This document shows, piece by piece, positions 59,175 to 64,000 of a DNA stretch of 64,000 nt. How positions within the stretch are numbered: the first letter of the stretch is position 1; each line of letters starts with the position of its first letter. The notes beneath the pieces were generated by a model that was not told the DNA's origin, made no database searches, and was given only the letters and a program-made list of their open reading frames with translations. Origin of the DNA: Xenophilus azovorans DSM 13620 (GTDB lineage: Bacteria > Pseudomonadota > Gammaproteobacteria > Burkholderiales > Burkholderiaceae_C); the NCBI RefSeq assembly GCF_000745855.1, contig NZ_KN050766.1, forward strand, positions 465,567-529,566, written 5' to 3'. Both the position numbers and the translations under genes were made by a program.

Positions 59175-59247
59175 CGCGCCCTTCGCTCTTTCCGCCGACG
59201 CAACGAGCAACCTTGCGCCGGCTCCCCAATCCAGGAGCACCTTCTTC

Positions 59248-59277
59248 ATGTCGTACTTGTTCAACACCTTCCTCTGA
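59248..59277 (+). CDS. Leader peptide MSYLFNTFL
   Basis: Nine-residue ORF with a good AGGAG site at 59233-59237, ten bases before ATG 59248, and TGA at 59275-59277. It contains Tyr, two Phe and three Leu/Phe-adjacent codons in nine. It lies 18 bases before a set of alternative hairpins ending in a T tract, the layout of an amino acid operon attenuator. Too short to be a folded protein; a regulatory role is inferred. Confidence 0.6.
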   Translation: MSYLFNTFL

Positions 59278-59294
59278 ACACGGTTCCCCGCCCC

Positions 59295-59363
59295 GGCTGA
59301 CCGTGCTCGCACCACGTCAGCCCAGGCGCCGCGAAGCCCTGGCCTGCTCAGCCGGGGCTTTTT
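59295..59363 (+). terminator. Attenuator-like hairpin set with intrinsic terminator
   Basis: Four segments can pair in sequence: 1:2 GGCTGAC (59295-59301) with GTCAGCC (59316-59322); 2:3 CCAGG (59322-59326) with CCTGG (59338-59342); 3:4 GCCCTGGC (59336-59343) with GCCGGGGC (59351-59358), followed by five T. Segments 2:3 and 3:4 exclude each other. An alternative long stem GCCCCGGCTGA (59290-59300) with TCAGCCGGGGC (59348-59358) is also perfect. Whether the 3:4 terminator responds to leader translation is inferred. Confidence 0.6.
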
Positions 59364-59466: not shown

Positions 59467-59712
59467 ATGAGTGCAAAGAAGCGATCCCGCGCCTTCACCG
59501 AAGGCCGGGTCAAGGCCTTGCGCCGCATGAAGCAGCCGATGGTGCTGCACATCGAGAAGACCGCCGCGCCGCCGCGCAACCCGGTCGCACGCGCCCTGGC
59601 GGGCACGCGCGCCTCGGGCGCCGGGCGCCATGTCCGCAGCCAGGGCGCGCAGCGGCGCGCCGACCGCGTGGCGCTGCTGCGCCTGGCCGCGGCCCGGCAC
59701 GACAACGACTAG
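59467..59712 (+). CDS. Small basic protein of unknown function
   Basis: 81 residues, strongly basic (many Arg and Lys, few acidic residues), without signal peptide or membrane segment. The middle MKQPMVLHIEKTAAPPRNPVARALA looks like a conserved core; the tail is Arg/Ala-rich and probably helical. No known domain is recognised. A CAGGAA site lies 10 bases before ATG 59467, and ATG 59527 is a possible shorter start. It is followed after 9 bases by the AAA+/M41 gene, so the two are co-transcribed and it could be a substrate, adaptor or nucleic-acid-binding partner. Confidence 0.65.
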   Translation: MSAKKRSRAFTEGRVKALRRMKQPMVLHIEKTAAPPRNPVARALAGTRASGAGRHVRSQGAQRRADRVALLRLAAARHDND

Positions 59713-59721
59713 AAGAAGAAC

Positions 59722-61716
59722 ATGAACGACCCGACTTCCAACGCCCTGCCCGATGCGCAGGCCCTGCGCGCCCAGCTCGCCGAGCGCAGCGCGCACCTCC
59801 AGGCCGCGGCCGCCACGCTCAAGCAGGAGCTGTTCGGCATCGACGCGGTGATCGACCGCGTGATCGAGTCCGTGCGCGCCTGGTACGTGCTGCCGAAGAT
59901 CGTCACGCGGCCCGTCATCGTCTGCCTGTGGGGCCTCACCGGCACCGGCAAGACGCAGCTCGTGCGCCGGCTCGCGCAACTGCTGGGCTTCCAGGACCGC
60001 TTCGTCGAGGTGCAGATGGACGGCTTCAGCCATGGCGCCAGCGGCCGCGGCCCGGCCACGATCTCGGGCCTGCTGGCGCAGGGCGGCATGGCCGAGGGCG
60101 CGCCCGGCGTGCTGGTGCTCGACGAGTTCCAGCGCTACCGCACCGTGGACGAGCAGCGCAAGGACGCGCGCGTCGAGCGCTACCAGGACGTCTGGGCGCT
60201 GCTCTCCGACGGCCGCCTGCCGCTGCCGCTGTCGCTGCTGGGCGAGATCGAGACCGCCATCGCCGGCGCCCTGTACGACGCCGACCGGGAGGCCGCCGGG
60301 AACGACGGCGACGGCGATGCGCCGGCGCGGCGGCGCCGCTTCAGCCTCTCGACCTGGGAAGCCGAGGAGCTGCGCCGCAACCTCAAGCTCGACGCGCCGC
60401 TGACCGAGGTGATGGCCTGGACGCCCGGGCAGATGCTCGATCGCCTGCGCGCCTTCCAGGAATCGCGCACGCAATGGGAGACCGACTACAGCCGGCTGCT
60501 GGTCTTCGTCTGCGGCAACCTGGACGAGATGTACGAGGAGATGGCCACCCGCGTGGAGGACTGCGACACCGACGCCGACATCTTCCACGCGCTCACGCGC
60601 GGCCTGTCGGTCATCGACGTGAAGAAGGCCCTGGCCGAGCGCTTCAAGCCGGAGCAGATCGCGCGGCTGGGCAACGACCACGTGATCTACCCCTCGCTCT
60701 CGCGCGCGGCCTACGAGCAGTTGATCCGCCACACCTGCGAACGCTACGTCGAGGAGACGCGCGCCAGCGCCGGCGTGGGCTTCGTGCTGGACGCGTCCGT
60801 CCACGCGCAGCTCTACGCCGACGGCGTCTTCCCGGCGCAGGGCACGCGGCCGCTGTTCTCGTCGATCCATGCGATCCTGAGCGCCACGCTGGTCCAGGCG
60901 GCCCTGTGGGCGCTGGAGCATGGCGCCGCGCCCGGCGACACCGTGCATCTGTCGATGGCCGGCGGCCGGCTGCGCGCACGCTTCGAGGCGCACGAGCGGC
61001 ACTTCGACGCGCCGCTGGACCTCAGCCGCGCCCGCCGGCGCACCAGCGAGGACTTCCGCTGCCTGCTGGCGATGCACGAAGCCGGCCACGGCCTGGCCTA
61101 CGCGCTGCTCTTCGGCCATGCCCCGCTGGAGGTGCGCATCAACGTCGCCTCCTTCGAGGGCGGCTACAACAGCTATGCGCCGCGCAAGGCATGGTCGCGC
61201 CGCAACCTGCTGGACTCCATCTGCGTGAGCCTGGCCGGCCGCGCGGCCGAGCGCCTCGTCTTCGGCGATGCGCACGCGACCAGTGGCGCCGAGGGCGACC
61301 TGCGCAAGGCCACCGCCACCGCAGCGCGCATGGTGCGGCACCTGGGCTTCGGCCCCCGGCTGTCGCACACCGACGTGGCCGACGGCGCGGGCGAGAACGT
61401 CAACACCTCCCTGGCGCCGACCAACGCCGCCATCGAGGCTCTGCTGCGCGAACAGCAGAGCCGCGCCGACGGCCTGATCGCCGCCCACACGGTCGAACTG
61501 CTGACGCTGGTGGACGAACTGCTGCGCTGCGGCAGCATCGCGCCCGCGCGCTTTGTCGAACTGCTGAAGCTGCGCGCCGCGGCGGCCCCGTCGCCGGGCG
61601 AGCCGATCGACGCCTATGCGATGCGCCTGGCGGCCTTCCGCGCCGCAGCCGCGCCGAGGCGGCGGGCGCCCGGCAGAAGGCCGTCGCGGTCGTCCGGCTG
61701 CGCGGAAGCCCTCTGA
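59722..61716 (+). CDS. Clp-type AAA+ ATPase fused to an M41 (FtsH-like) zinc peptidase
   Basis: Protein of 664 residues with an unusual architecture. Residues 1-415 form a Clp/Hsp100-type AAA+ module: Walker A GLTGTGKT (71-78), Walker B LVLDEF (131-136), sensor-1 Asn266 in VCGNLDE, a Clp-like ERFKPEQIARLG segment (306-317) and a sensor-2 GTRPL (374-378). Residues about 440-620 form an M41 peptidase: zinc motif HEAGH (452-456) and third ligand Asp526 in TSGAEGDLRKAT, preceded by LAGRAAERLVFG. FtsH pairs M41 with its own AAA subtype and has N-terminal membrane helices; here no membrane segment exists and the AAA domain belongs to another subfamily. All catalytic residues are intact, so a soluble ATP-dependent protease is expected. 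Start ATG 59722, 9 bases after the small basic protein. Confidence 0.88.
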   Translation: MNDPTSNALPDAQALRAQLAERSAHLQAAAATLKQELFGIDAVIDRVIESVRAWYVLPKIVTRPVIVCLWGLTGTGKTQLVRRLAQLLGFQDRFVEVQMDGFSHGASGRGPATISGLLAQGGMAEGAPGVLVLDEFQRYRTVDEQRKDARVERYQDVWALLSDGRLPLPLSLLGEIETAIAGALYDADREAAGNDGDGDAPARRRRFSLSTWEAEELRRNLKLDAPLTEVMAWTPGQMLDRLRAFQESRTQWETDYSRLLVFVCGNLDEMYEEMATRVEDCDTDADIFHALTRGLSVIDVKKALAERFKPEQIARLGNDHVIYPSLSRAAYEQLIRHTCERYVEETRASAGVGFVLDASVHAQLYADGVFPAQGTRPLFSSIHAILSATLVQAALWALEHGAAPGDTVHLSMAGGRLRARFEAHERHFDAPLDLSRARRRTSEDFRCLLAMHEAGHGLAYALLFGHAPLEVRINVASFEGGYNSYAPRKAWSRRNLLDSICVSLAGRAAERLVFGDAHATSGAEGDLRKATATAARMVRHLGFGPRLSHTDVADGAGENVNTSLAPTNAAIEALLREQQSRADGLIAAHTVELLTLVDELLRCGSIAPARFVELLKLRAAAAPSPGEPIDAYAMRLAAFRAAAAPRRRAPGRRPSRSSGCAEAL

Positions 61717-61737: not shown

Positions 61738-64000
61738 CTACCAGGCGACCTTCACGCCGGCCTGTGCGCCCCACGCGTGACCGCGGCTTCCGCCCAGCGC
61801 GCGGCGGTAGCTGGCCGAGCCGTACAGCGAGACGGCTTGCGTCAGCCGCGCATCCACGCCGGCCGTCAGCGCCAACGAGCGGCCGTGCACGCTGCTGTCG
61901 AAATTCACGCCGTGCAGGCCCGCCAGCGACGACACGGTGGTCGTGCTGCGGCCCTGGAATTCGTTGAGCAGGTCCAGCCGCGCCCAGGCCGCCAGCTTCG
62001 GCGTGGCGTAGCCCAGCTTCAGACCGGCGCGGCCGACCAGCGAGTCCACGTCGCCGTAGTTCACGCGGCCGGCCAGGTCTGCGCCGCCGCCCAGGTCGGC
62101 CTGCTGGCGGCGCACCTGCAGTTGCGGCTCCAGCGTCCAGGCACCGCCCAGGCTGAACGGCAGCCCGCCCTCGACCGACACGTCGTAGCCCGTACCCGAA
62201 CTCTTCACACCCGGCATGCGGGTGGAGGTGGCCTTCACGCCGTAGTGGCTGCCCTGGGCAACGAAATCCACGTAGCCGCCCTGCGCGCCCAGCAGCGTCC
62301 AGTACAGGCCCAGCGAGGTGACGTCCAGCTTGGCACTGCCCGCCGCGGTGCCGTTGAAGTGCCGCACGTCGCCGCTGGTCTGACCGGTGGCGAAGTACAG
62401 GCCGGCATGGGTGCGGCTGCCGTCCTCATTGCGGCCCTGGTAGAAGTCGCCGCCGAGCTGCAGCGCGGCGGTCTTGTGGTCGTAGGCGGGGCCGCTGCGG
62501 CCGTAGACGCCCAGCGCATCGCCCTTGCGCTTGCCGTTGCTGCCGATCAGGCGAACCCACAGGCGCGCAGGCCGGCTGTCCTCGCCGGCGGCGGCATAGC
62601 CGGCCGCGCCCATGCGCTCGTGGAAGCTGTCCATCGTCGCAGCGCTGTGCAGCGCGGCCAGCGAGGGCACGGCGGCGTAGAGCGAGGTTTCCTGGCGGTA
62701 GTTGGGCAGGCTGACGGCCGGCGGCGTCACGGTGCCGGGGTCCGTGGGCGCGCCCGGATCGACCGGCGGCGTGGTGATCAGGTCGGAACTGAGGTACCAG
62801 CTCTGGTTGGCGCGGCGCACCAGCGAATAGTCGTACGCGCCGGCGCTCACCGGGCCGGCCAGCGAGAAGGCGCCGGTGCCGGTGGTGGCGCCGTTCTGCG
62901 CGTCGACCACCAGGATGCCGTTGCCGGTCGTTCGCGCACCGGTACCGCCGGTGTTGGTGATGCCCAGACGCGTGCTGCCGGTGGCGCTGCCGCCGTCGAT
63001 CACCAGCCGGTCGCTGGGCGAGCCGTCGTCGCCCAGCCAGGTGTTGAGGTTGATCTGCCCGCCCTGGCCGACGTAGTTGCCGACGGTGACGATCTTGTAG
63101 GTCCCTCCCACCGGCACGGTGTAGGTGACGGTGCCACTGTTGCTCAGGGAGGTGAGCACGGAGTCGCCGGTATTGGTCCACAGGCCGGCGTTGCTCAGGT
63201 CGATCTGCCCGCCTGCCGCCTGCACCGTGCCGTGGATCAGGCCCGTGTTGGTGGCGCCAAGGGTACCGGCCGTCGCACGGATGGCCTCCGGCGCACGCAA
63301 GGTACCGCTGTTGCTCAGGCTCAGGCTGCCGGGCGTCTGCGACAGCACGGCGGTCGAGCCGGCCAGCAGGCTGCCGCTGTTGTCGATGGCACCGCCCATC
63401 GCCACATTGCCGGAGACGTCCAGCGCCACCGCGGCGCTCTCGGCCACAAGGCCGGCGTTGGTGATGTCCAGGCTGCCCGCGCTGTGAGCGGAGATGCCTG
63501 TCGACTGCGCATCGATGCGCCCACTGTTGTCCAGCGCCAGCAGCGCCGACGGCGAATTCACAGCACCCCAAACACCCGTACCCACAGGCACCGCGGGGGT
63601 ACCAATTGTGCCGGCATTGACCAGCGACACGTTGCCCGCGCCGGCCGCCACGGCAGACATTCCCATGGCGAGCTTGCCCTGAGCGGCAATGCTGCCCTGG
63701 TTCTCCACCGTCAACGTACCGGACGGACCGCTGTGGGACATGGCGATGCCCGCCCCGCCGCCCAATGGACCGGCCGTGATGGCGCCGGTGTTGACAATGC
63801 GTGCATCACCCGCGATGTCGTGGCCCGCCATGCCGGTGCCCGCAATGGGAGAATTGAAAGTGATGGTGCCGCTGTTGGTGACGTCGGCGCCGCCGGCGGC
63901 GCCGTCGATCATGAGACCGCTGATGCTCAACCCACCCGCCACCAGTTCTCCCGCATTGGAAAAGGCGACCTTTCCTGCCGGACTGGACAGGTAGACGGGA
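61738..64000 (-). CDS. Autotransporter with haemagglutinin-like passenger (5' end outside window)
   Basis: Type V secreted protein, open to the window edge, so the signal peptide and part of the passenger are missing. The part nearest the edge (VYLSSPAGKVAFSNAGEL, then VAGGLSISG) resembles the filamentous haemagglutinin-type N-terminal domain. A long beta-helix with Asn-Ser/Thr-Gly repeats follows (VTNSGTITF, VNAGTIG, LDNSGRID, LSNSGTL). A Pro-rich linker (TTPPVDPGAPTDPGTVTPP) leads to the C-terminal outer-membrane beta-barrel (about the last 290 residues, ending WGAQAGVKVAW with a terminal aromatic). Probable surface adhesin. Confidence 0.9.
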   Translation of the reverse strand, partial: PVYLSSPAGKVAFSNAGELVAGGLSISGLMIDGAAGGADVTNSGTITFNSPIAGTGMAGHDIAGDARIVNTGAITAGPLGGGAGIAMSHSGPSGTLTVENQGSIAAQGKLAMGMSAVAAGAGNVSLVNAGTIGTPAVPVGTGVWGAVNSPSALLALDNSGRIDAQSTGISAHSAGSLDITNAGLVAESAAVALDVSGNVAMGGAIDNSGSLLAGSTAVLSQTPGSLSLSNSGTLRAPEAIRATAGTLGATNTGLIHGTVQAAGGQIDLSNAGLWTNTGDSVLTSLSNSGTVTYTVPVGGTYKIVTVGNYVGQGGQINLNTWLGDDGSPSDRLVIDGGSATGSTRLGITNTGGTGARTTGNGILVVDAQNGATTGTGAFSLAGPVSAGAYDYSLVRRANQSWYLSSDLITTPPVDPGAPTDPGTVTPPAVSLPNYRQETSLYAAVPSLAALHSAATMDSFHERMGAAGYAAAGEDSRPARLWVRLIGSNGKRKGDALGVYGRSGPAYDHKTAALQLGGDFYQGRNEDGSRTHAGLYFATGQTSGDVRHFNGTAAGSAKLDVTSLGLYWTLLGAQGGYVDFVAQGSHYGVKATSTRMPGVKSSGTGYDVSVEGGLPFSLGGAWTLEPQLQVRRQQADLGGGADLAGRVNYGDVDSLVGRAGLKLGYATPKLAAWARLDLLNEFQGRSTTTVSSLAGLHGVNFDSSVHGRSLALTAGVDARLTQAVSLYGSASYRRALGGSRGHAWGAQAGVKVAW

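Follow-up and report, generated by a model that had tools for sequence, protein, structure and literature searches.

Among described AAA+ proteases, FtsH and the m-AAA and i-AAA proteases are closest to the protein considered here, which shares with them the M41 fold, the zinc site and the combination of motor and peptidase in one chain, but differs from them in having a Clp D2-like motor and no convincing membrane anchor. The D2 modules of ClpB and ClpA, as well as ClpX, resemble it in the layout of the Walker, sensor, box VII and sensor 2 elements and in the D2-small domain; in contrast to these, it has a fused metallopeptidase and no separate ClpP, one AAA module, a long insert between Walker B and sensor 1, and no GYVG-like pore loop. 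Lon is likewise a one-chain AAA+ protease and is soluble in bacteria, but its peptidase is of the serine-lysine type, whereas the present protein has a zinc peptidase. The nearest parallel to the region upstream of the gene is provided by the trp-type leader-peptide attenuators, in which a short leader ORF is combined with competing hairpins and an intrinsic terminator.

The gene lies in a window of 64,000 nucleotides from Xenophilus azovorans, the whole stretch of DNA analyzed here. The overall explanation that we favor, and hold to be reasonably probable, is that it encodes a soluble, one-chain, ATP-dependent protease derived from phages, which is accompanied by a small partner protein and by an attenuator that would read translation.

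Domain architecture and affinities of the protease

The protease gene occupies positions 59722..61716 (+) of the window, a span filled exactly by a 664-residue ORF. An AAA+ motor of the Clp D2 type with its D2-small domain extends over about residues 20–432 (59779..61017, +). It is followed by a Peptidase_M41 domain at residues 442–607 (61045..61542, +), which includes the HEAGH zinc motif (61075-61089, +) and the presumed aspartate ligand, Asp 526 (61297-61299, +). In Pfam, the Peptidase_M41 model matches residues 442–607 with 76.2 bits (cut-off 29.9) and the AAA model PF00004 matches residues 67–150 with 32.4 bits (cut-off 21.2). The first-pass annotation had named three Pfam models as a check on this architecture, and only Peptidase_M41 came out positive: AAA_2 has no match in the window protease, and ClpB_D2-small matches just 3 of 62 family members. 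The protease has no match to the Lon protease domain in Pfam or NCBIfam, and Lon models reach residues 21–110 only.

A separate FtsH is encoded elsewhere in the same genome. Among the proteins of this genome, a profile of the motor half scores best against a ClpB-like protein (51.8 bits) and gives FtsH 6.2 bits, while a profile of the peptidase half gives FtsH 90.4 bits and every Clp protein at most 3 bits. One ordinary phage FtsH receives 15.3 bits from the motor profile, which is a point against a clean Clp assignment. In NCBIfam the protease is matched by ClpA (35.9 bits) and ClpB (30.8 bits, best stretch 299–418), and the FtsH model covers residues 436–602 only, all of these matches being far under the models' own cut-offs. 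The PDB matches of the motor half also place it with Clp/Hsp100. The motor shows the D2-type AAA+ core, the GxRP sensor 2 and the D2-small domain of the Clp/Hsp100 proteins; of the features of FtsH, the protein has an M41 domain with HExGH and the Asp ligand, and lacks an AAA motor of the FtsH subtype. An FtsH-type motor was rejected on the own-genome scores and on the restriction of the NCBIfam FtsH model to the peptidase end. The earlier claim that the N-terminal half falls outside the FtsH AAA subtype is thus upheld by NCBIfam, the PDB matches and the own-genome profiles alike.

The structure model of the protease monomer has a pLDDT of 72.6 and a pTM of 0.49, with residues 294–325 poorly modeled. 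In VIA-align, FtsH-like chains come out on top, as the protein aligns with them over both domains; that other families are missing from the ranking is no evidence. Judged by its sequence affinities, the protein is a single polypeptide that combines a predicted Clp-D2-type unfolding motor with a predicted FtsH-type zinc peptidase.

For comparison across bacteria we used a set of 81 proteins, comprising the window protein and those of 80 loci kept of 108 relatives in a genome scan, nearly all from Burkholderiales. The profile search scored few candidates per genome, and ORFs in the fetched loci were called by simple scripts of our own. The hydropathy of the window protease over 19-residue segments has its maximum of 1.46 at residue 378, whereas the FtsH of the same genome attains 2.09 close to its N-terminus; such segments reach 1.6 or more in 6 of the 81 bacterial proteins, with a top value of 1.82. 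The protease is predicted to be soluble: it has no convincing membrane helix, as the first-pass annotation had stated, and the N-terminal membrane helices of FtsH are absent. The accompanying statement that known M41 proteases are membrane-anchored needs to be corrected in view of a protein annotated as 'AAA family ATPase' (WP_130696050) from a plasmid of Rhizobium sp. C104 (L142:1693-3669), in which M41 stands behind an FtsH/PAN-type AAA domain and hydropathy peaks at 1.51. This protein resembles the window protease in having M41 and motor in one chain and no strong hydrophobic segment, but its motor is of the FtsH/PAN type, and it apparently represents a second kind of soluble M41 protein. 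The gene that follows it is annotated as a metallophosphoesterase.

Gene neighborhood and the small basic protein

Genes that we take to be hrpA and argA are found near the protease in 43 of the 81 loci each, and in the Roseateles-like loci neither of them is one of the three genes that flank it; their recurring vicinity is taken as local synteny. Downstream in the window is a convergent ORF (61738-63999, -) which is rich in Ser, Thr and Gly, has by eye an autotransporter-like C-terminus, and continues past the window edge.

Upstream of the protease, positions 59467..59712 (+) encode a small basic protein of 81 residues. Its homologs, of about 80 residues and rich in Arg and Lys, precede the protease in 57 of the 81 bacterial loci. 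In the Roseateles-like loci and a few others, the small gene overlaps the start of the protease gene; elsewhere it lies at most 190 bases away, except in L039 (794 bases). Of the 24 loci without it beside the protease, 18 are from Variovorax, and some contigs have little upstream sequence. The window protein has no match in Pfam, NCBIfam or PHROGs, and a few of its relatives give weak family matches, the best with an E-value of 0.012. Its structure model (pLDDT 67.6, pTM 0.29) offers nothing interpretable beyond helices. The dN/dS of the small gene is about 0.1–0.35 in four pairs, one of which has very few changes.

In a family sample of 349 genomes, the window genome included, 36 have a protease match with an E-value of 1e-20 or better. 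The small gene is found in 32 of these 36 genomes versus 15 of the 313 others, or, with a broader profile, in 32 of 36 versus 31 of 313; going by match coordinates, it sits at most 350 bases upstream of the protease in 28 of the 32. These co-occurrence counts are no independent test, because the genomes are relatives of one another and some of them duplicate the named loci; at the protease, for example, three Variovorax genomes (G379, G602 and G671) do not differ from L008, L020 and L025. These three have a diverged copy of the small gene at another locus. The small protein is most likely an adaptor or a dedicated substrate of the protease.

A predicted leader RNA

Between hrpA and the small gene of the window lies a conserved leader that contains a Shine-Dalgarno-like AGGAG (59233..59237, +) and, after it, a short ORF, MSYLFNTFL*, with a TGA stop (59248..59277, +). 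By eye, GGAG stretches are also seen upstream of the leader ORF in many other loci. Strand 1, ACACGGTTC (59278..59286, +), starts directly after this stop and pairs with strand 2, GGCTGACCGTGC (59295..59306, +), which can instead pair with strand 3, GTCAGCC (59316..59322, +). The loop GCCCCGGCT (59290..59298, +) is invariant and complementary to the 3' arm of an intrinsic terminator, AAGCCCTGGC...GCCGGGGCTTTTT (59334..59363, +), situated about 100 nt before the small gene. A pattern search finds the leader in 46 of the 57 small-gene loci, and a covariance model adds others. An ORF of 6–10 codons is read in 43 of the 46, the other three not fitting the ORF pattern.

In an alignment of 39 of these 46 leaders, the share of paired cells is 87.6% in helix 1:2, 87.8% in helix 2:3 and 94.9% in the main helix of the terminator. 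Of the 9 pairs of helix 1:2, 3 show changes on both sides. Helix 1:2 and the terminator together have 91.6% of cells paired, above every shuffle (mean 88.6), and 32 double changes versus a shuffled mean of 11.4; the number of pairs with a double change is not unusual (86 of 500 shuffles), and additional pair types are more numerous in the shuffles (497 of 500). In helix 2:3 the double changes are not above those of the shuffles (297 of 500), and the covariation score stands at 2 of 500. RNAalifold favors helix 2:3 plus the terminator, choosing five pairs of helix 2:3. The Roseateles-like group has a different strand 3. Between the loop and the 3' arm of the terminator, pairing is possible in 99.0% of cells, but covariation gives no evidence for it because both sides are nearly invariant. 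As helices 1:2 and 2:3 share part of strand 2, the leader is likely to be a transcription attenuator, a reading drawn from the short ORF, the competing hairpins and the intrinsic terminator. It resembles the trp-type attenuators in these parts, but the leader peptides differ in sequence among loci, no run of one amino acid was seen in them, and Rfam offers no match. Rfam finds only a tRNA in the window, and the matches of the window and L007 leaders are far under threshold; with none above the gathering score for either, a known RNA family was rejected. A sigma-32-like heat-shock promoter before the small gene was likewise rejected, the strict pattern being present in 0 of 57 upstream regions (shuffled mean 0.08).

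The covariance model finds one leader copy in the window genome at an E-value of 0.01, and the leader has a match in 10 of 60 genomes searched, six of which, judged by scores, have weak matches only. The small gene occurs without the protease at three loci (L130, L131 and L132), at one of which (L131) the leader is also present, and with a protease remnant at a fourth (L133). In three Variovorax genomes (L124-L126) the leader accompanies the relocated small gene (26.7–32.1 bits), and at two further loci (L134:2099-3637 and L135:2689-4270) divergent small genes stand directly before argA, presumably encoding N-acetylglutamate synthase, with no protease in the locus. These cases would be expected if leader and small gene formed an independent unit, of which the protease is merely a frequent neighbor. 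We regard this as rather unlikely, since small gene and protease overlap or nearly abut even in differing surroundings, such as the Roseateles-like loci, and since in Cupriavidus pauculus (L075), whose locus lacks a small gene, the protease follows the leader directly. Moreover, two predicted viral contigs of about 15 kb (L144 and L145) carry together the leader (27.4 and 34.9 bits), the protease and a partial homolog of the small protein, which matches model positions 33–64 only (E about 1e-7). Among the viral loci the small protein is found only on contigs of these two types, each under two locus identifiers; a search of 42 viral loci found no leader next to the protease and gave three weak matches elsewhere in them (E 0.12 or worse).

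Conservation in bacterial and viral homologs

The Walker A motif, LDEFQR (Walker B), GNLD (sensor 1), RF[KR]PEQ[IV]ARLG (box VII) and the HEAGH zinc motif are present in all 81 bacterial proteins. The sensor 2 motif reads GTRPLFSS in 75 of the 81, its GTRP being invariant in 62 of 62 aligned proteins. A narrow pattern for the third zinc ligand fits 77 of the 81, and Asp 526 is itself invariant in the 62 aligned. The Clp-type motor and the M41 zinc site are accordingly both intact, as first proposed. The presumed pore loop is not GYVG-like; it contains an aromatic residue in 68 of the 81 proteins but none in the window protein, which makes strong unfolding activity of this copy somewhat less likely. 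According to our own Nei-Gojobori script, dN/dS between the window protease and that of L003 is 0.43, indicating weak constraint, and about 0.08–0.14 in three other pairs. As dN is below dS in all four pairs, the ORF is not a chance reading frame.

The fused protein is also encoded at 53 distinct loci on predicted viral contigs (IMG/VR predictions, not isolates), 16 of which are on contigs of at least 200 kb, the largest having 547,943 bases. The scans of viral contigs gave 4, 8, 2, 3 and finally 53 distinct loci, which overlap, and several contigs share one protein. The protease is no isolated case but one branch of a family found on many predicted viral contigs. Walker A, D[ED]xQ, sensor 1 and HExxH are present in each of 40 distinct full-length viral proteins, and GxRP in 37; the third-ligand pattern fits 26 of the 40, and the Asp is invariant in a 13-row alignment that includes ten viral rows. 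One viral homolog, shared by two contigs (L209:7980-9416 and L213), ends after the motor and has no M41 in that ORF, and on a 548-kb viral contig (L180:7920-9933) a homolog is split over two frames.

The protein might instead be a remodeling factor, whose motor unfolds or disassembles complexes and whose M41 domain has mainly a structural role, like that of the FtsHi subunits of chloroplasts. The full-length fold matches of the protease model do include FtsHi complexes, and the viral homolog that stops after the motor fits this reading as well. The zinc motif, however, is retained in every bacterial and every distinct full-length viral protein, and Asp 526 in every aligned one, making such a factor improbable; an active protease is preferred in what follows.

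Origin and phyletic distribution

ORFs around the viral protease genes include those for thymidylate synthase, NAD-dependent DNA ligase, helicases and Thg1. On a 339-kb viral contig (L157, 7914-13308) genes for Hsp70 and DnaJ lie directly 3' of the protease, a run that is a possible phage proteostasis cassette, and in L154 clustering identifies homologs of both, located at some 3 and 5 kb downstream of the protease. Antitoxin- and VapC-like ORFs, identified by eye, adjoin the protease in L144 (3412-4460).

Phage and plasmid records were searched with the window protein, and phage records only with those of L147, L146, L199 and the longer L180 piece; no record covers 80% of any query. Two queries have no match, and the others mostly have matches in the M41 region. 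Three of these matches were inspected: the Rhizobium protein described above, a phage FtsH of the ordinary kind that has FtsH_ext, and an Arthrobacter protein whose sequence looks like that of an FtsH and includes a strong hydrophobic segment.

A tree was built by a quick method from 66 proteins, 26 of the 81 bacterial and the 40 distinct full-length viral ones, with a midpoint root and no outgroup; the split L180 protein and the short L209/L213 protein were left out. The 26 bacterial rows form one side of a branch with an SH-aLRT of 88, and the protein of L144, a predicted viral contig of 14.7 kb, joins them with an SH-aLRT of 100. The placement of the bacterial branch among viral proteins under the midpoint root suggests that the gene moved from phages into bacteria, on a root that is not fixed and with L144 and L145 as possible prophage edges. 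The opposite course, in which the fusion arose in Burkholderiales and was picked up by phages, draws on the facts that the midpoint root serves for drawing only and that the bacterial rows make up one side of a branch. It has a low probability in our estimation, given that the aligned bacterial relatives are 52–73% identical to the window protease and the viral proteins 24–52%, and that the bacterial distribution is patchy. Besides the 36 of 349 genomes of the family sample, matches occur in 2 of 398 genomes of a phylum sample at an E-value of 1e-30, both from the same family and one of them the window genome. In an order sample 25 of 300 genomes match, the window genome alone at full length and the remaining 24 in the peptidase part only, like FtsH.

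Of the 36 family-sample matches, two are remnants (G655 and G714) and two are split (G534 and G686); three others (G675, G529 and G431) have one internal stop, though in G529 one ORF spans model positions 9–634. The protease remnants of G655 (L136:1454-7437) are flanked by two ORFs with HELHH or HEVTH motifs reminiscent of DUF4157-type proteins. That the gene is a degenerating selfish remnant with no present role in the window organism is very improbable: the broken copies, the weaker constraint on the window-L003 pair and the lack of a match in four other genomes of the same genus in the family sample would agree with it, but the window copy is intact in catalytic motifs, small gene and leader, and leader, small gene and protease are likewise present in G1009, a genome of the same genus whose sequence is identical to that of L003 over 3.1 kb.

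Proposed function and implications

Under the favored explanation of a phage-derived protease with a small partner, the protein would form a hexamer that, by analogy with FtsH, threads cytosolic substrates into an M41 chamber, where they would be degraded through the joint action of the Clp motor and the M41 site. The fusion may have arisen or diversified in phages, acting there on host or phage proteins, before one phage branch entered Burkholderiales, where the protease would usually be made together with the small basic protein as its adaptor or dedicated substrate. A ribosome on the stop codon of the leader ORF could cover strand 1, leaving helix 2:3 to form, so that the terminator would fold and the operon be off; if the leader ORF were untranslated, helix 1:2 could form, and its loop could capture the 3' arm of the terminator and leave the operon on. 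The direction of this switch is a guess. More tentatively, and with somewhat less than even confidence, we propose that the fusion is a soluble Clp-M41 protease standing beside Lon, which came from huge phages and was domesticated in Burkholderiales as a translation-sensing stress operon with an attenuator and a small adaptor or substrate.

A paper that treats jumbo phages records ClpP, ClpS, ClpA, ClpX and Hsp70 cochaperones, and the portions of it considered here do not name a Clp-M41 fusion (PMC7824862); neither do the corresponding portions of two other papers (PMC13282480, PMC12363816). Among the matches listed from the open-licence literature, we found no description of the Clp-motor/M41 architecture, in agreement with the first-pass annotation, nor of the leader RNA.

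If the architecture is correct, it would be a new one for AAA+ proteases, showing that M41 chambers can work with a Clp motor, and it would put a name to a protein encoded by many predicted huge phages. A natural M41 enzyme that is soluble would also be free of the membrane anchor that complicates the biochemistry of FtsH. Should the leader prove to be a translation-sensing attenuator, it would be a so far undescribed RNA regulator linked to proteolysis, and the operon would then be induced when translation of the leader ORF falls.
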